Source: Malus domestica
Taxonomy: Eukaryota; Streptophyta; Magnoliopsida; Rosales; Rosaceae
Length of the DNA stretch: 64,000 nt
Reading direction: 5' to 3'
Assembly: GCF_042453785.1 (NCBI RefSeq)
Contig: NC_091672.1
Span: 935,001 to 999,000 of the forward strand
Below, piece by piece: positions 27,109 through 51,796 of this stretch (position 1 is the stretch's first letter; every line of letters begins with the position of its first letter). The notes under the pieces were generated by a model, which ran no database searches, was not told the origin of the DNA, and saw only the letters and a program-made list of their open reading frames with translations. Position numbers and translations under genes: made by a program.

Positions 27109-30100
27109 TCATCTCATTGCTCCAAGCAAATTTGCACCATCAAGCTTTGCACCTTCCAAATTCTGTTCAAAACATAAAAATTAGAGTTACATCCTCGATT
27201 GCACGCTGTCAGTTGACACACCTAGCAACTATCCTACCAACAGAAAGGGCGTTCTCAATGCTGCAATTTCTACACTGGTTGTACGGATAATGCACATATA
27301 TCAGACCTCCGAACTTCAATTCAAGGGAGGAAAGTAAATCCTAAACTCACTGTCTAGTTTTAGTAACTTAGGCCCATTCAGCAACCTTTTCTTTCTTTTT
27401 GTTTTTTGCTTTTCATTTGCGTTTTTTCAGTTAGAGATAGAGAGGAAATAAATGGATGAAGTCTTGAAGAGAGGCGGTGAGAGGGGTGAGGGAAAAATCG
27501 AGGATGAATGAAATAAAAACTTGAAACGAAAACAACTTAAAATTGTTTTTATTTCCAAGCCAATATCTTCAATCTCCTCCTACCACCCTTCTATATATCT
27601 CCCTTTCTCCCATATATATCCTCCGTCTCTAACAGAAAATGGAAGCTAAAAGCCAAAAATGAGAAAATTACCAAACCAATAACCAAAATAGAAGTTTACA
27701 AAATGGTTTTAACTTTGATCAGCTTTCATTACCGTATCTCGAAGATTCACTTGACGTAAATAAGCTCGTTGAAGGTTTGCATCCTTCAAATTGGTATTCC
27801 TCAACTTGGCACCCTAGCATGCAAAAAGACAAACCAAACAAATAAATAAAGGGACGAAAGGGAGATATTTTGTTTCATTTACGATTTCATTTCTTTGAAC
27901 AATAATGGATAATGTCATATAAGATGAACTACAGATTGTTTTCTATAAAAAAATTTCATGTAAACGTGGGGTGTTTCTCCAAAACAGCCTCGCATACCAG
28001 CTATATGATTATGACACATATCTAACTGAAGGCATTCTTAATCACATAATAGAATATAAGAAATAAGCAAACCAAATAGGTTTTACATTTGATTTCCCAT
28101 AAATGAGAAGAATGTGAGATATCCGTTGCGTTATTTTTGACTTTACTAAGTAAGATCTCACCAGATTGAAAGTAGAAAACAACACGAGGGATATCTCACA
28201 TTGTTTTTTTTATTATACCTTCACCACTCGTCTTCAAGGACTACCTAGCACAATCACCTCGTACATTTTCTCAAACTCACCTTCGATTTGACCCCAAACC
28301 TAACTTGATGAACATGTTGGTCGTATTCAGTTCTCTACCTAACACTAGAGTTCCACTACCAGCATTTATTATGTTCATTTAACCATGAAACACTAATTCA
28401 CCACAAAGTGATCCAGCCTTCACTGTTAGGGATCTTTCTAAATCATCTCATTTCCCTTAAGGTGAAACAAACGAAGGAATGAAAGAACCTGTATTTCATT
28501 TACATCCCCTGCCTCAGACCAAACAAAGTATTAGAAAAAGGCTTAAATGTTTCGGTAATTGGATTAAAATGAAGACTATTTTCATGGTACTTTTCTTCTC
28601 GAAAAAGGGAGAGCAAGATATCTTGCCTACTATTGCAATGTGTTAGCAAGCCCGTGAAGATGTGTCCCAGAAAATTTAGAGCCATGAAAAAAGATGTAAT
28701 ATGGCAATTCATAAGCTTTTTTAGAAGTCAAACAGGATAATTATGTTCTCAAAATGAATTTATAGGAGTTCTTTTAATCTCTTAAACATAAGATTCATAC
28801 TAGACTAAGTTAGTTTTTTTCCTTTGACACACAACCTCCACTTTACCTTCAAATTTGCTCCTTCCAGAATAGCTCCCTCTAGATTGGCATTTGTAAGATC
28901 AGCATTCTGAAAAATTAAGAGCAAGAAGATAATGCATCATTCACTCTGTCAGTACCAAATCCTAAGCCTTCATTAGTCGAAGTAATATGAGTATCTCAAA
29001 CAAACAGTTACTATCTCATTATTGGATGTTCTCGAAAACCAAAAAAGGACAAACTACTCAGAAACAAGTGAACTATATTCTGATTGACAAATGCAGAACC
29101 TGTAGGTGTGCAGAACGCAGGTCTGCCTGGCAGAAGCTAGAATCTATCAAGCATGCATCTGAAAAGGGACACAACACAATTAAAAGGAAAATTCAGTCTT
29201 AACTCTGGGTAAACGAGAGACACATAAGCTAAATCCATATTAAAAAAGTTTTTAAAAAAATATTTGAAGTTTAAATGAACAGAAACATATGCCAAGGAAT
29301 TTAAGGAACATGATTACGGAAATAACAAATAACATAGTAATAAAATATTATCAGAAACCAAAATGCAGAAAAGTTTGCCTTGTAGATTTGCGCTCTGAAG
29401 ATTAGCACCAGCCAACAAAGCTCCACGGAGATTTGCCCCAGTAAATTCACATCTTACCAAGGCAAAAGATAATTGCATTAATCAAGCAACCGATTAATAA
29501 TATAATATCATCATTAACTGGAAATTATTAGAATTCATACTCCCGCAAAGTTGCATTGTGAAAGATGGCACCCTCAGCATCAACATCCTGTGACAAAATA
29601 TAAAAGCTTCAATAGTCATATACTGATCTTATAAAAAGAAACGAAAACTATATACAACAACAACAACAACAACAAAGCCTTTTCCCACTAAGTGGGGTCG
29701 GCTATATGAATCCTAGAACGCCATTGCGCTCGATTTTGTGTCATGTCCTCCATTAGATCCAAGTACTCTAAGTCTTTTCTTAGAGTCTCTTCCAAAGTTT
29801 TCCTAGGTCTTCCTCTACCCCTTCGGCCCTGAACCTCTGTCCCGTAGTCACATCTTCGAACCGGAGCGTCAGACGGCCTTCTTTGCACATGTCCAAATCA
29901 CCGGAGCCGATTTTCTCTCATCTTTCCTACAATTTCGGCTACTCCTACTTTACCTCGGATATCCTCATTCCCAATCTTATCCTTTCTCATGTGCCCACAC
30001 ATCCCACGAAGCATCCTCATCTCCGCTACACCCATTTTGTGTACGTGTTGATGCTTCACCACCCAACATTCTGTGCCATACAACATCGCTGGCCTTATTG

Positions 30101-33100
30101 CCGTCCTATAAAATTTTCCCTTGAGCTTCAGTGGCCTACGACGGTCACACAACACGCCGGATGCACTCTTTCCATCCAACTCGTATTCTATGGTTGAGAT
30201 CTCCATCTAATTCTCCGTTCTCTTGCAAGATAGATCCTAGGTAGCGAAAACGGTCGCTTTTTGTGATCTTCGCTAGATTGCTCCGGTCATTAGTGTGGAT
30301 AAGTATATAAATGGATAGAGATAGGAAAACAAACACAAGATGTACGTGGTTCACCCAGATTGGCTACGTCCACGGAATAGAAGAGTTCTCATTAATTGTG
30401 AAGGGTTTACACAAGTACATAGGTTCAAGCTCTCCTTTAGTGAGTACAAGTGAATGATTTAGTACAAATGACATTAGGAAATATTGTGGGAGAATGATCT
30501 CGTAATCACGAAACTTCTAAGTATCGGAGTGTGGTGTCGTCTTGACTTGCCTTATCTGTCTCATAGGTAGATGTGGCATCTTCTCTGGAAGTACTCTTCC
30601 TCCATCCAGGGGTGGTATCTTTAACTGGTGGAGATGCACAAGGTAATGTATCAATTTCACTTGAAGCTTACTTGTAGTTTCAGGCTTGGTCAAGCGCGAT
30701 ACAAACCATGTAGTAGGAGTCCCCCAAGTCGCCGAGCTAGGGGGTCTGCTGAAAGAGGTGACAGACAAGGTAAGCAATCAGAGCTCCGACTGATTGTTCA
30801 CCTTCTCCCCATCTTGCAGCAGCATGAAGGATAAAGAGAAGAAAAATGAGAAGAGATGATATGAGATACTTTTGCTTTTGAAGAAGTAACGTTCCACAGG
30901 CTTATTCTTGAACTGAGCTGGAGGGTTTTTTGGTTTCCTCCAGAGTATAAGGCCGACTGAAGAATTTGAGGGTCAAAACAAGTCCATCAAATCTAGAGTA
31001 CGTTCCACCCTGCTGATATGGGATACTTTTGCTTTTGACAGAGTAATGGATGTATCGGCACGTGTGCTGTTACGCTTGTCTCCACATGCTTCCTTGTATC
31101 CTTCGCACTTGCCCTATCTGTTCCTCAAGCAGATGCGGAATCTTCCCTGGAAACATAAGATGTTGAAGATGAGTACTCGAGAGCAATGCCAGGTAAGTAA
31201 TCAGGTAAGGGGTTCCAGGCAGTCAGTTCCTGGCTGGAAGCTTGATTCCAAGTGCTGACTGATTGCTCTCTTTCTCCTTGTCTTGCAGGTAAAAACAAGG
31301 CCAAAAGAAAAGACAGGGAAAAAGCATGATATGGGATACTCTTGCTTTTAACCCTGATGATATGAGATATTCTTGCTCTAGTATAGCTTGTTTGCAGAGG
31401 TATTATCGGGGGGAAAGAAAGCTGAATATTTCGAAAGGCTTTGTTGGGAGTGCCCTCTCAGATATGATGAAGGGTTGAGCATTTTTGCAAGTCTGCCTGT
31501 CCGTTGGGGATGGAGGTCGACATATATAGGAGTCTCCCTAACAACAAGTAGTAATGCTATTCCTTTACCCTGCTTGGTCATAGCACAGTAGTAGGAGCTG
31601 CCAGTTTCACATGTTTTAACTCTGTCAGAGCACTTTGAAAAAGTGGTCTGTGGTATATGGCTCTCGAGATTCGGAGAACGATGCCTCTTCGATTTTTGAG
31701 AAAGCAATCATGCTGGGGGTCTGACTCTCGAGATTCGAAGAGCAGTGTCTCTTCGATTTTTGAGGAAGTAATCATGTTGGGAGTCTGGCTCTCGAGATTC
31801 GGAGGGCGGTGCCTCTTCGATTTTGGAGCAAGCAATCTTGTTGGGAGTGTTGTCTCGAATGTGAGTAAAGGTTGGGCATGTTTGCTAGTCTACCTTGCCA
31901 CGAAGCACAAAGGTTGACACACAGGGACTTTCCAATTATCCAGCAATGGTACTGTTCCTTTACCCTCTCTTCGATTTTGAGAAAGTAGTCATGTTGGGAG
32001 TCTGGCTCTTTAGATTCAGAGGACGGTGCCTCTTCGATTTTGGAGCAAGCAATCTTGTTGGGAGTGTTTTCTCGAATGTGAGTAAAGGTTGGGCATGTTT
32101 GCTAGTCTACCTTGCCACGAAGCACAGAGGTTGACACACAGGGACTTTCCAATTATCCAGCAGTGGTACTGTTCCTTTACCCTTGTGGGTAATAATATGG
32201 TAGCTAGACCTTCAAAATTTATGGGTCTAAACTTTGTTAGTGCTGTTTCTTTGTTATTCTTTTACCTTTCTTGGTCAGAGCGATGTAGTGGGAGCTGCAA
32301 GCTTCACGTGCTCAACTTTGGCAGAGAACTTTGGCAAAGTTATCTGTGGTACCCATGAGTTATTATTGCGTGTGGGAAGTGAGTGATTGAACAGTAAGAT
32401 TCATGTGCTTTCTACTTCACCAGAAGTCTTCGACAGAATGCCCATAATTTCTGCAAAGCTGAGTGTGTGTGTGACAGGTGCTGACAAGGCTAGAAAAGTA
32501 GGTGCCTCTTTGATTTCTGAGATCGGCCCTCGTGGTCTATGAGCAGCCCAGCTTTTGAGAAAGCGAGCGCCTCTTCGATTGATTCGGAGAACGATGCCTC
32601 ATCGATTTTTGAGAAAGCAATCATGCTGGGGGTCTGGCTCTCGAGATTCGGGGAGCAGTGTCTCTTCGATTTTTGAGAAAGTAATCATGTTGGGAGTCTG
32701 GCTCTCGAGATTCGGAGAGCGGTGCCTCTTTGATTTTGGAGCAAGCAATCTTGTTGGGAGTGTTTTCTCGAATGTGAGTAAAGGTTGGGCATGTTTGCTA
32801 GTCTACCTTGCCACGAAGCACAGAGGTTGACACACAGGGACTTTCCAATTATCCAGCAATGGTACTGTTCCTTTACCCTCTCTTCGATTTTTAAGAAAAT
32901 AGTCATGTTGGGAGTCTGGCTCTTTAGATTCGGAGGACGGTGCATCTTCGATTTTGGAGCAAGCAATCTTATTGGGAGTGTTTTCTCGAATGTGAGTAAA
33001 GGTTGGGCATGTTTGCTAGTCTACCTTGCCACGAAGCACAGAGGTTGACACACAGGGACTTTCCAATTATCCAGCAGTGGTACTGTTCCTTTACCCTTGT

Positions 33101-36100
33101 GGGTAATAATATGGTAGCTAGACCTTCAAAATTTATGGGTCTAAACTTTGTTAGTGCTGTTTCTTTGCTATTCTTTTACCCTTCTTGGTCAGAGCGATGT
33201 AGTGGGAGCTGCAAGCTTCACGTGCTCAACTTTGGCAGAGAACTTTGGCAAAGTTATCTGTGGTACCCATGAGCTATTGTTGCGTGTGGGAAATGGGTGA
33301 TTGAACAGTAAGATTCATGTGTTTTCTACTTCCCCAGAAGTCTTTGACAGAATGCCCATAATTTCCGCAAAGCTGAGTGTGCGTGTGACAGGTGCTGACA
33401 AGGTTGGAAAAGTAGGTGCCTCTTCGATTTCTGAGATCGGCCCTCGTGGTCTCTGGGGAGCCCAGCTTTTGAGAAAGCGAGCGCCTCTTCGATTTCTGAG
33501 ATCGGCCTTCGTGGTCTTTGAGCAGCCCAACTTTTGAGAAAGCAAACACCTCTTCGATTTCTGAGATCAACCCTCGTGATCTCTAAGTAGCCCAACTTTT
33601 GAGAAAGCAAACGCCTCTTCGATTTCTGAGCAGGCGCCTCTTCGATTTCTGAAGCTCCGTCGAGTGCAGATTTTTATAGGGGCTGGCATTAAGTTCCAAA
33701 GCACACTTGAATCTCCACCAGTAGAAGCTTCATTCTTGCACTTCTAAGATCTTGATTTGTCCGACCTCTTCTCTCTTCAACACCTTTGAAAATGTCTGGC
33801 CCCTCCGACCGTCGTTTTGACTTGAACCTTGTTGAAGAGGCAGCCCCGCCTTCTCCAGACAACATATGGCGCCCATCCTTCGTCTCCCCTACTGGTCCTC
33901 TTACCGTTGGGGATTCCGTGATGAAGAATGATATGACCGCTGCGGTGGTGGCCAGGAACCTTCTCACTCCCAAAGATAACAGACTACTTTCCAAACGGTC
34001 TGATGAGTTAGCTGTTAAGGATTCGCTGGCTCTCAGTGTTCAGTGTGCAGGTTCTGTGTCTAATATGGCCCAACGCCTATTTGCTCGAACCCGCCAAGTT
34101 GAATCATTGGCGGCTGAAGTGATGAGTCTCAAACAGGAGATTAGAGGGCTCAAGCATGAGAATAAACAGTTGCACCGGCTCGCACATGACTATGCTACAA
34201 ACATGAAGAGGAAGCTTGACCAGATGAAGGAAACTGATGGTCAGGTTTTACTTGATCATCAGAGATTTGTGGGTTTGTTCCAAAGGCATTTATTGCCTTC
34301 GTCTTCTGGGGCTGTACCGCGTAATGAAGCTCCAAATGATCAACCTCTGATGCCTCCTCCTTCTAGGGTTCTGTCCAGTACTGAGGCTCCAAATGATCCC
34401 CCTCCGGTGCCTTCTCTTTCTGGGGCTCTACCGACTGCTGAGACTTCTCCTAAGCAACCTTTGTGAAGGCTTCCTCTTGTGTGTTTATTTTGACTCATGT
34501 ATATGTACATATTTGTAGCTTATCGGGAATATCAATAAATAAGCTTTCCTTCATTTCAACATATTGTGTTAAATACACCAAAGCCTTCTTCGCTAAGTTC
34601 TTTGAATTTTCTTTTGTTGAAGCTTGTATGTTGAAGCTTGTATGTTGAAGCTTTCTGAGTGGAGCATGTAGGTTGGGGTAGTGTTCCCTTAATTTCCCGA
34701 GTGAGGAAAACTTCTCGGTTGGAGACTTGGAAAATCCAAGTCACTGAGTGGGATCGGCTATATGAATCTTAGAACGCCATTGTGCTCGATCCTGTGTCAT
34801 GTCCTTCGTTAGATCCAAGTACTCTAAGTCTTTTCTTAGAGTCTCTTCCAAAGTTTTCCTAGGTCTTCCTCTACCCCTTCGGCCCTGAACCTCTGTCCCA
34901 TAGTCGCATCTTCTAATCGGAGCGTCAGTAGGCCTTCTTTGCACATGTCCAAACCACCGTAACCGATTTTCTCTCATCTTTCCTTCAATTTCGGCTACTC
35001 CTACTTTACCCCGGATATCCTCATTCCTAATCTTATCCTTTCTCGTGTGCCCACACATCCAACGAAGCATCCTCATCTCCGCTACACCCATTTTGTGTAC
35101 GTGTTGATGTTTCACCGCCCAACATTCTGTGCCATACAGCATCGCCGGCCTTATTGCCGTCCTATAAAATTTTCCCTTGAGCTTCAGTGGCATACGGCGG
35201 TCACACAACACGCCGGATGCACTCTTCCACTTCATCCATCCAGCTTGTATTCTATGGTTGAGATCTCCATCTAATTCTCCGTTCTTTTGCAAGATAGATC
35301 CTAGGTAACGAAAACGGTCGCTCTTTGGTATTTCTTGATCTCCGATCCTCACCCCTAACTCGTTTTGGCCTCCATTTGCACTGAACTTGCACTCCATATA
35401 TTCTGTCTTTGATCGGCTTAGGCGAAGACCTTTAGATTCCAACACTTCTCTCCAAAGGTTAAGCTTTGCATTTACCCCTTCCTGAGTTTCATCTATCAAC
35501 ACTATATCGTCTGCGAAAAGCATACACCAAGGAATATCATCTTGAATATGTCCTGTTAACTCATCCATTACCAACGCAAAAAGGTAAGGACTTAAGGATG
35601 AGCCTTGATGTAATCCTACAGTTATGGGAAAGCTTTCGGTTTGTCCTTCATGAGTTCTTACGGCAGTCTTTGCTCCTTCATACATATCCTTTATAGCTTG
35701 GATATATGCTACTCGTACTCCTTTCTTCTCTAAAATCCTCCAAAGAATGTCTCTTGGGACCCTATCATACGCTTTTTCCAAATCTATAAAGACCATGTGT
35801 AAATCCTTTTTCCCATCTCTATATCTTTCCATCAATCTTCGTAAGAGATAGATTGCCTCCATGGTTGAGCGCCCTGGCATGAACCCGAATTGGTTGTCCG
35901 AAACCCGTGTCTCTTGCCTCAATCTATGCTCAATGACTCTCTCCCAGAGCTTCATTGTATGACTCATTAGCTTAATACCCCCTATAGTTCATGCAATTTT
36001 GTACGTCACCCTTATTCTTGTAGATAGGCACCAAAGTGCTCGTTCGCCACTCATTTGGCATCTTCTTCGTTTTCAAAATCCTATTGAAAAGGTCAGTGAG

Positions 36101-39100
36101 CCATGTTATACCTGTCTCTCCCAAAAGTTTCCACACTTCGATTGGTATATCGTCTGGGCCTATTGCTTTTTTATGTTTCATCTTCTTCAAAGCTACAACC
36201 ACTTCTTCCTTCCGGATTCGACGATAAAAAGAGTAGTTTCTACACTCTTCTGAGTTACTCAACTCCCCTAAAGAATCACTCATTTCATGTCCTTCATTGA
36301 AAAGATTATGAAAATAACCTCTCCATCTGTCTTTAACCGCGTTCTCTGTAGCAAGAACCTTTCCATCCTCATCCTTGATGCACCTCACTTGGTTTAGGTC
36401 CCTTGTCTTCTTTTCCCTTGCTCTAGATAGTTTATAGATATCCAACTCTCCTTCTTTGGTATCTAGTCGTTTATACATATCGTCGTAAGCCGCTAACTTA
36501 GCTTCTCTGACAGCTTTCTTCGCCTCTTGCTTCGCTTTTCTATACCTTTCACCATTTTCATCGGTCCTCTCCTTGTATAAGGCTTTACAACATTCCTTCT
36601 TAGCCTTCACCTTTGTTTGTACCTCCTCATTCCACCACCAAGATTCCTTTTGGTGTGGGGCAAAGCCCTTGGACTCTCCTAATACCTCTTTTGCTACTTT
36701 TCGGATACAACTAGCCATGGAATCCCACATTTGGCTAGCTTCCCCCTCTCTATCCCACACACATTGGGTGATTACCTTCTCTTTGAAAATGACTTGTTTT
36801 TCTTCTTTTAGATTCCACCATCTAGTCCTTGGGCACTTCCAAGTATTGTTCTTTTGTCTTACTCTTTTGATATGTACATCCATCACCAACAAGCGATGTT
36901 GATTAGCCACGCTCTCTCCTGGTATAACTTTGCAATCCTTACAAGTTATACGATCCCCTTTCCTCATTAGAAGAAAATCTATTTGTGTTTTTGACGACCC
37001 ACTCTTGTAGGTGATCACATGTTCTTCTCTCTTCTTAAAGAAGGTGTTGGCTAAGAAGAGATCATATGCCATTGCAAAATCCAAGATAGCTTCCCCATCC
37101 TCGTTTCTCTCCCCAAAACCATGGCCACCATGAAAACCTCCATAGTTGCCTGTCTCCCTGCCCACGTGTCCATTTAAATCTCCTCCTATAAATAACTTCT
37201 CCGTCTGAGCAATTCCTTGCACCAAGTCTCCAAGATCTTCCCAAAATTTCTCCTTCGAACTCGTATCCAACCCTACTTGAGGTGCGTACGCACTAATCAC
37301 ATTGATAAGTTCTTGTCCTATTACAATCTTGATTGCCATGATTCTATCTCCTACCCTCTTGACATCTACAACATCTTGTACCAAGGTCTTGTCCACGATG
37401 ATGCCAACACCGTTTCTCGTTCTATTTGTGCCCGAATACCAAAGTTTAAACCCTGAGTTTTCTAGATCCTTTGCCTTACTACCAACCCACTTAGTTTCTT
37501 GTAGGCACATAATATTTATCCTTCTCCTCACCATAACTTCCACTACTTCCATAGATTTTCCCGTTAAGGTTCCTATATTCCACGTTCCTAAACGCATTTT
37601 GCTCTCTTGAACTCTACCCTTCTGTCCTAGCTTCTTCACCCTCCCCTGTCTAATAGGATCAAAGTACTTCTTTTGTGTGTCCCGGGTAAAGTTGATAGGA
37701 GCATATGCTCCCAAACAACTTTGAGTGGAGTCGTTCGAAAAGAAGTTTCTATGGCCCCCTTGCTCATTTAACACTGCATCCGGGTGCCGATGGAGATACA
37801 GCGACCCTTGCTCACTTATCACTGTGCTCGGGCCACACAGCGCGCCACTTACGGGTGACGCCCTAGCTTTAGCGCGATTTTGTTCTGGATTCATTTTCAT
37901 AAGGATTCGACGTGATCATGGAGTGCCGGCTGTCGACTACCTGACGCCCTCCCCCTCCTCCTTTATCCGGGCTTGGGACCGGCCATGTAAGACATAGGCG
38001 GAGTTAAACGAAAACTATATACGCCGACAAAAAATACAGTGAGAATAACAACATTTAATACAACAACAACAACAAAGCCTTTTCCCACTAAGTGGGGTCG
38101 GCTAGAATAACAACATTTAATATGTAGAAAAAAAACAGCAGTTGTTTTTAACAGACCAGACATACCATGTATAACTAAAGGTTACCTTGAACTTAGCACA
38201 TTGAAGATTTGCACGTGAGAAAAAGACATTTTTCAAACATGCATAGCTGAAGTCAACAAATGACAAGTCCTGCAATTTCATGGATCAAGTAACACCATGA
38301 CATCAGAGACAAGGCATCAAATAAATGGATAATCATGCATCTTTTACCAACCAAAACATCTTTTCATTTAAATTCATAAATAATCCAGCAATGCTTACTT
38401 TTAATTTATGAAAGCAGTAAGAAACTGGTTTCAACATGCTATAGGAAATTTTGATTCTTAATACAGATTGTAATAGATGTTGTTTTACAAATTCAAAATA
38501 TTTTTTGGTAAAAAAACTTGGTACACTAGGCATGAGTGAGGACGTTGCAGAGAAAATGCAAATGTATAGATCTCTTAGGGGCTTCATTATGTGCCTGTAC
38601 TTCTGAAACTAGATGTTCTAAACGGATATTAGCTTATTGTAGTGTATTTTTTTCAAATTTCTAGAAACCGAATTTTACAAGGCACATATCTCGTACTACT
38701 TTTACTTTTTTTTTTTTTTCAGAATTGAGAACCTGAGAAATTACCAATTTGGAAAGGTCAAGGCCAGAAAGATTGACACCTCGAAAACGCACTTTCTCAG
38801 ACTGTATGCACTTGATGATATCAGTACGTGTTAGTTCTGTATCTACCTCTTCATCCTCCCTCTTCTTATTTAGAACAGCATGTATTCCATCCATCAGACC
38901 CTGAAAATTGTTTCAGAAATTCACAACATTGTTGAAACAATCTGACTGTCAAATGAAAAGAGGCAGTATTCATTGTGATGGGAGAAATGAAAGCGGATAA
39001 AAATGGAGATATTTTTGACATGTAAATTCATTAGTAGATTGATGAATGAATCTCAGCACATGTATAAACTCCATTACTTCAACATAGTTAGAGATATACA

Positions 39101-50770: not shown

Positions 50771-51796
50771 AACCCTCAACACTCAAACAATATGTAGAAG
50801 GAATATTCCATGTAGATTGCTCAACCATTAAATATAGCTCACTTGATTAAGAGTATTCGTACTTGTTTTTGAGGTTTTGTATCAAATTTTTCTCTTTTCA
50901 GCTTTGTGTCAAACTCTTCTCTTTTCTTGGACCGTAAGTTCATGGTTCAAAATTGCTTAGTTGATTAAGAACATTTGCACGCAGGCTCATTGTAAATTAA
51001 ATGCGAGGCACTTAAACAAAATAGTAGGCTCCACGTAAGAAAAGTATCTGAACTAATCACTTCATAGTTGTACCACGGTCTAATAATTTTAACCCCTTAT
51101 GAGAAATGTCACTGTTAGACGATGAGTTCGATTCCTTAATATAGCTAGTTGATTGGTGGCCTTTGACCAAATTCTTTTCTCCAATATTGACGTATAAAAT
51201 CAAGCTAGTCGTCTCATAAAGTTCATAAGCAGTTCGTATTTTTTTTCGAAATAAAACGAGTTTGATTCAAGCACGACTCTCATAATTAGACTACAAACAA
51301 CAACAAAATCTTATTTCACTAAATGAGATTTGATATATATATACTATAACGCCACTGCGCTTTCGATTTTTGCGCTTATAATTCGAACAAGTTGTAAAAT
51401 TAGAGCCAACTATTGTATTAGTTTACTTAAATCTAAGTACTTATTTATGAACGTACCATTTCTAAAAGCATAAGCACAACGTATGCCATCTGAGACCTCT
51501 TCAGAGGAGAACCTCAAAGAAATTGCATGACCAAAAGAAGCTAATCGAAATTAAATTGCAAATGAACGATGCTCATAATGCTCGTAACAGATTTCGTTAC
51601 ACTTCCAATTAAGGTATACAATCTGCTAAAACCGTTGCGTTGCCTGATCTCTGCTTCGATCACTAAGTGAAAGGGAAAAAAAATGAGTAACTGCAGTAAA
51701 TGAACCTCAAACCTCAAACTAATATTGCTGTGCAGCTTAAGAGGAACAACTCGCAACTGCATTCAGTCTCCCATGTTTGTGAATTGTGATGATGAA
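50771..51796. other. Intergenic: p23 promoter and XCT 3' flank
   Basis: No gene or clear element. A short T-rich direct repeat (CAAATTTTTCTCTTTTC and TCAAACTCTTCTCTTTTC) is at about 50884-50920. Confidence 0.45.

Follow-up and report, generated by a model that had tools for sequence, protein, structure and literature searches.

In mammalian L1 elements, read-through carries flanking DNA along at the 3' end and gives rise to 3' transductions and transduction lineages, which are usually shorter than the element described here and are not known to replace their own lineage. To our knowledge, chimeras and 3' transductions of long interspersed nuclear elements (LINEs) are usually viewed as rare dead ends. 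We analyzed a 64,000-nucleotide stretch of the Malus domestica genome (contig NC_091672.1, positions 935,001 to 999,000; the window) containing a composite LINE insertion, in which an RTE element (RTE-A) is joined to antisense DNA of a long terminal repeat (LTR) element and to the 3' terminal part of another RTE (RTE-B). The composite resembles the L1 transductions in its 3' flanking DNA, but it is longer and appears to have replaced its lineage. We consider it very probable that the window insertion is a recent full-length copy, made by target-primed reverse transcription (TPRT), of an established composite RTE family; this confidence applies to the copy and not to the formation of the founder.

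According to PMC3747384, all flowering-plant RTE-clade LINEs end in (TTG)n or (TTGATG)n. The composite shares with plant RTE-clade LINEs the endonuclease (EN) and reverse transcriptase (RT) domains, the (TTG)n 3' end, target-site duplications (TSDs) and variable 5' truncation. In contrast to them, it adds 5.1 kb of 3' sequence, more than the RTE itself, made up of antisense LTR-element DNA and the second RTE 3' end. The RTE 3' untranslated region (UTR) before the tail is typically short according to PMC2887409, whereas ~5.09 kb separate the RTE-A stop codon from the TSD in the composite. The clade assignment draws on the TTG tail and is presumptive.

LINE template-switch chimeras in Magnaporthe and mammals join copies of different RNAs in one orientation between short direct repeats, which measure 14 bp in the fungal tripartite element and 15-16 bp in two mouse elements; the fungus has 33 bipartite elements and one tripartite element, in which the LINE is usually the 3' part and no microhomology is reported (PMC2104539). 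The composite is similar in that its parts lie in one orientation between TSDs and its 5' part is a near-full RNA copy, without ~10-20 nt and the tail. However, the LINE forms its 5' portion, and this fusion has grown into a family whose junction is present in thousands of copies. Sadhu elements of Arabidopsis are likewise plant non-LTR copies with foreign DNA; the foreign stretches measure 19 and 150 bp, and template switching or transduction was proposed as their origin (PMC2848041), whereas the composite carries a 5-kb module in an amplified coding family. The middle 4.5 kb of the composite is like the large retrotransposon derivative (LARD) elements of Rosaceae (PMC4668562), with an LTR terminus and no pol domains found, but it holds the 5' part only, antisense and borne by a LINE.

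No amplified plant family of this build was found in the literature searched, a search that did not take in Repbase and the apple genome paper, and the family may possibly already be catalogued. A candidate for such an entry would be HODOR, a high-copy repeat of Golden Delicious that is mentioned in PMC6445120. No relative was found in the viral_contigs or genome_contigs searches.

Structure of the insertion

The composite occupies positions 29656-38005 of the window (8,350 bp) and consists of the following parts.

29639..29655, no strand: left TSD, AAACGAAAACTATATAC, from the window sequence search.
38006..38022, no strand: right TSD, identical at 17/17 positions, from the window search with shuffled and random controls.
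34742..38005, minus strand: RTE-A, a 5'-complete RTE with EN (PF03372) and RT (PF00078).
34742..34751, no strand: microhomology of 10 nt (CACTGAGTGG) where the parts join; the sequence is CACTGAGTGG in LARD and CACTAAGTGG at the RTE 3' end.
30262..34741, plus strand: LARD-type LTR-element piece, antisense to the RTE, with LTR 5' terminus, leader and partial interior; no 3' LTR.
29656..30261, minus strand: RTE-B, the terminal 3' segment of another RTE, which carries the CCCACTTAGTGGG hairpin and the (TTG)n tail and with which the composite now ends on its 3' side.
31668..33494, plus strand: 913-bp tandem duplication within the LARD piece (31668-32580 and 32581-33494, 96.5%).
33792..34466, plus strand: LARD open frame of 224 aa, coiled-coil-like.

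The perfect 17-bp duplication that the preliminary description had placed around the insertion was confirmed. AAACGAAAACTATATAC occurs at 29639-29655 and 38006-38022 and nowhere else in the window, while shuffled flanks reached at most 13 nt (2,000 trials) and random window pairs at most 14 nt (3,969 pairs). Read along the minus strand, the order is TSD, RTE-A (38005-34742), the antisense LTR-element piece (34741-30262), RTE-B (30261-29656, the last 606 nt of a second RTE) and the second TSD copy.

RTE-A matched PF03372 at 1.4e-09 and PF00078 at 2.7e-34, and its frame in the window copy is interrupted once, by an extra G in a G run near 35980 relative to the other copies covering the site. RTE-A had been described as an RTE 5' end; that end is indeed full, but RTE-A is not merely a 5' end, as it lacks just ~10-20 nt of the last part of the terminal hairpin and the (TTG)n tail. 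The earlier statement that the two RTE C-terminal regions overlap by about 590 bp also held, with 586 columns at 93.0% identity.

The middle had been divided into Tat-type sequence and an LTR fragment. We found instead one LARD-like piece, with likeness extending to 34750-34751 in 11/11 native LARD loci fetched, and a second copy, located at 57.7-59.75 kb of the window, is collinear with parts of the 30954-34486 interval. The LTR starts at 30262 (TGTGATCTTCGC), not at the LTR-to-RTE junction of 30275/30276 given previously, and this start is common to an independent LTR copy at 1353-1112 on the minus strand. From the LTR terminus and the lack of any pol domain found in its 4.5 kb, we infer that the middle segment is part of a LARD. 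No Pfam family exceeded its cut-off for the 224-aa frame. Of the two LTRs that flank the interior of such an element, the 5' terminus alone is present in the composite.

Copies of the composite in the apple genome

We searched the window's own genome (651 Mb) for both junctions. A 301-nt query across the junction of RTE-A and LARD gave 1,037 candidates and a full score at 12 of 40 scored places, the window's own among them. The 47-nt pattern of this junction, at ≤3 mismatches, was present at 2,371 places genome-wide and the pattern of the RTE-B and LTR junction at 2,499, with no match for the reversed-pattern control of the former or for the control of the latter. Both junctions thus occur on both strands at thousands of places, and therefore the window copy is best read as an ordinary TPRT insertion of a fusion that is older. 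The preliminary description had the chimera made at this locus, which was not borne out. Its proposal that the whole RTE-LARD-RTE RNA was reverse transcribed and inserted as a unit gains support from the same junctions at many loci, where the suggested search for these junctions in different flanks found them.

Twenty loci of 10 kb (L-numbered) were taken from the 40 scored matches, with the window excluded and selection by identity. All 20 showed RTE-B, LARD and RTE-A in the same order, both junctions and the identical 3' terminus. Their 5' ends ranged from 34947 to 38009: nine reached the RTE 5' end (two of them with an internal deletion), one stopped at 37951 and ten were cut between 34947 and 37768. 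TSD-like repeats of 13-21 bp were found at 12 loci, comprising all nine 5'-complete copies and 3/11 5'-truncated ones. The window copy differed from L018 by two mismatches and one gap over 8,350 nt. LTR-region distances were 0.004 within a group of 14 young copies; the distance separating these from old copies was 0.035, and therefore the fusion predates that split. The 913-bp unit was double in 15/20 loci and single in L010 and L023-L026, so the duplication probably arose after the fusion. In L019 and L028, RTE-A carries internal deletions (35040 to 37883 and 35831 to 37851, respectively), but both copies keep their 5' ends and have TSDs, which measure 14 and 15 bp; these are possibly short forms or RT jumps.

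A second, less biased sample comprised ten members of which the ends alone were read; they were the first ten of twenty places spread over the exact matches listed for contig C1. The RTE-B tail was present in all ten (in one, the outer edge lay beyond the stretch read). In five, the sequence extended to the 5' end, which lay where it was expected, and repeats of 17-18 bp were present in four of them, one extending into the CAA tail. The middle was shortened in 7/10.

Plain and fused RTE-A

A pattern inside RTE-A was present at 2,754 places genome-wide at ≤3 mismatches. Of its 49 exact matches on contig C1, 48 were in fused copies, a count limited to that contig and to exact matches, so that mismatched older plain RTEs lie outside it. 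The exact junction lay 578-581 nt off at 36 of the 49 (lists compared by eye), and one was the composite L024. The remaining 12 were all fetched; in 11 of them the RTE was joined to LARD, in L074 with a few nucleotides deleted there, whereas the twelfth was not fused. As far as one contig shows, the composite family displaced the plain form of its lineage. At L075, the sole non-fused place, the RTE-A match begins at 34960 beside other DNA.

Coding capacity and selection

An uninterrupted stop-to-stop EN-RT frame of 1,057 codons was present in L010, L018, L021 and L026 (4/20), and the remaining 16 copies were truncated or broken. The ratio of nonsynonymous to synonymous substitution rates (dN/dS) of the frame between subfamilies was 0.29 for L018-L026, 0.39 for L018-L024 and 0.53 for L018-L025, and that of two decayed copies against each other was 1.19. 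The P values for synonymous excess were 0.02, 0.0007 and 0.015 between subfamilies and 0.74 for the decayed pair. L018 and L021 differed by three synonymous and no nonsynonymous changes, and young-copy pairs in general carry too few changes to judge selection. We read these ratios as suggesting that the family was moved by its own protein after the fusion, which is not proof of present activity. A dN/dS of 0.32 for RTE-A against RTE-B was dropped because it mixes histories.

Proposed copying of the family and points against it

The composite RNA would start at the RTE-A 5' end, encode the EN-RT protein, continue through 4.5 kb of antisense LARD/LTR and end at the RTE-B 3' end. Judging from RTE biology, the RTE-B hairpin and TTG tail would serve as the start site for TPRT by the RTE enzyme, and TPRT would have produced the single 17-bp TSD.

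Several observations weigh against parts of this account. The RTE TSDs given in PMC2887409 are 6-12 bp, a range that the composite TSDs (13-21 bp) exceed. Eight of the 20 copies, all 5'-truncated, have no TSD of at least 13 bp (seven with nothing clear, and L027 with 8 bp). As a control, every left flank was matched with right flanks taken from different copies; the best scores were 7-11, with a single 13 (L011), which makes the 13-bp TSD of L015 the weakest case. One of the five 5'-complete members of the C1 sample shows no terminal repeat. The selection tests are pairwise, share sequences and are thus not independent, and include decayed copies; the close pair L018-L010 has one synonymous and four other changes. 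Present-day activity is suggested by near-identity between copies and may be proposed on that ground. On the side of the founder, the composite has microhomology at its join, whereas none was found at the template switches of PMC2104539. The source locus was not found; the closest of the 11 native LARD loci fetched was 90.5% identical, and therefore none of the eleven is the parent. As a separate observation, the truncated copies with no clear TSD are L009, L011, L013, L014, L020, L021 and L022, and their 5' junctions are unexplained.

Formation of the founder

The founder would have arisen once, when RTE-A was joined to antisense LARD within the 10-nt microhomology and lost its own tail. All 11 native LARD loci diverge from the composite after 34750-34751. 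A pattern built to exclude the composite gave 26 places, and at 24 of these native LARD continues beyond the join as CACTGAGTGGTCGTAAGA / CCAAGTCACTGAGTGGTCGTAAGA or a close variant; of the two exceptions, L061 is a composite that has lost 1 nt, and the other, on contig C12, has a different sequence. At the join, the RTE end reads CACTAAGTGGGGTCGGC and the composite reads CACTGAGTGGGATCGGC. The diagnostic G is that of LARD, and therefore the switch falls in the common AGTGG, which sits inside the 10-nt stretch alike at 9/10 positions; random 10-mers of the window match that well in 17 of 200,000 pairs. The microhomology fits two routes: nascent cDNA that annealed close to the 3' end of an RTE-A RNA, or a nested source that underwent a deletion through it. 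Inspection of 34741 by eye revealed no clear splice sites. A hairpin adjoining the join (z = -1.67) was set aside as evidence.

We lean slightly toward formation by an RT template switch, from LARD/RTE-B RNA onto the 3' end of RTE-A RNA. The read-through 3' transduction favored in the preliminary description is compatible with TPRT copying and is a serious contender, which we place somewhat short of an even chance; a template switch explains the 10-nt microhomology join at least as well. By read-through, RTE-A would have lain antisense in LARD and LARD in RTE-B, and a small deletion at the CACTRAGTGG microhomology would have removed the RTE-A tail, so that transcripts ran through LARD to the RTE-B 3' end. 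The LARD piece does begin at an LTR terminus inside RTE-B, as if LARD had inserted there, loss of the RTE-A tail would make read-through necessary, and the microhomology fits a deletion. However, this route needs an additional insertion and a deletion where a template switch gives the same product in fewer steps, and no such nested locus was present among the few native LARD loci read.

We also considered whether RTE-B was older or already dead at capture, given two lesions in RTE-B and one in RTE-A (P ~0.05-0.08). The RTE-B stop is present in the window copy and 18/20 loci and absent from L024 and L025, and the RTE-B 8-bp deletion is absent from L022-L028. RTE-B therefore decayed inside the family and not before the fusion, and the idea was ruled out as neither lesion is universal.

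Other explanations

The template-switch and read-through routes both end in a LINE that is copied by TPRT. That the unit instead moves as an LTR element carrying an RTE is very improbable. In its favor, 4.5 kb of the unit comes from an LTR element and includes an intact LTR 5' terminus. Against it, the copies terminate at the RTE 3' tail and complete ones also at the RTE 5' end, 5' truncation is common and the TSDs are 13-21 bp. In addition, none of the 20 loci showed a second LTR match of at least 150 nt within the composite (at L013 there is one beyond its bounds). An assembly artefact joining repeats is similarly hard to credit. Young repeats are hard to assemble and seven truncated copies have unexplained 5' junctions; however, repeats of at least 13 bp match at the two ends of the window copy and of 16 further copies examined, and the two junctions are each present thousands of times in the genome, in either strand orientation. 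Least probable, to the point of being negligible, is an origin at this locus alone, with LARD nested in an RTE, a second RTE in LARD and a deletion between the direct-repeat RTEs, which accounts for one TSD and overlapping RTE ends at one locus but is refuted by the genome searches, with the same junctions in other flanks (20 loci with both, 10 with the RTE-A and LARD junction and the RTE-B tail, 2,371 places counted) and a TSD-like repeat of at least 13 bp of their own at 16 of these 30 loci.

Implications

If the 2,371 copies span ~4.2-8.35 kb each, the family totals ~10-20 Mb (12-20 Mb for 5.1-8.35 kb). A LINE can apparently swap its entire 3' region provided that the recognition end of its enzyme is regained, and 3'-end recognition, read-through length and processivity (8.35 kb) become testable in a plant. 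Annotation pipelines may split such copies and list their LARD and RTE sequences as distinct elements. A broader interpretation, which we offer tentatively and consider rather doubtful as a whole, is that a LINE lineage permanently changed its 3' end, losing its own tail and gaining a 5-kb antisense LTR-element module and the tail of another RTE. It would thereby have given rise to a new autonomous family whose 3' UTR exceeds its gene in length; this family would have displaced the plain form and would produce transcripts antisense to LARD that might affect silencing of either.

Surroundings of the insertion

The composite appears to be intronic and in sense within a host gene on the minus strand at 28.4-40.2 kb, on our reading of the exons. 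This gene encodes a BTB_2 domain and pentapeptide repeats and is similar to Arabidopsis FIP2.

A 43-bp RTE insertion at 38061-38103 begins 38 bp past the right TSD of the composite. It is an extreme 5' truncation that consists of the terminal hairpin and TTG tail alone, with its own 19-bp TSD AGAATAACAACATTTAATA (span 38042-38122). A short old RTE 3' end at 51296-51370 shows 76% identity over 75 columns to the tail region.

The LTR-like copy at 1353-890 (minus strand) keeps the LARD LTR start (94% over 242 nt) and differs in the middle; it may be a solo LTR flanked by 5-bp repeats that match imperfectly (AAATT/TAATT). Another LARD-like element, the second in the window, lies at 56.1-60.4 kb and contains a relative of the 224-aa frame and GATGGTGCAATCCGCACCATC palindromes repeated in T-rich DNA. 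At 61.1-63.6 kb, a plant mobile domain frame on the plus strand overlaps a retrotransposon integrase/RNase H stretch on the minus strand.

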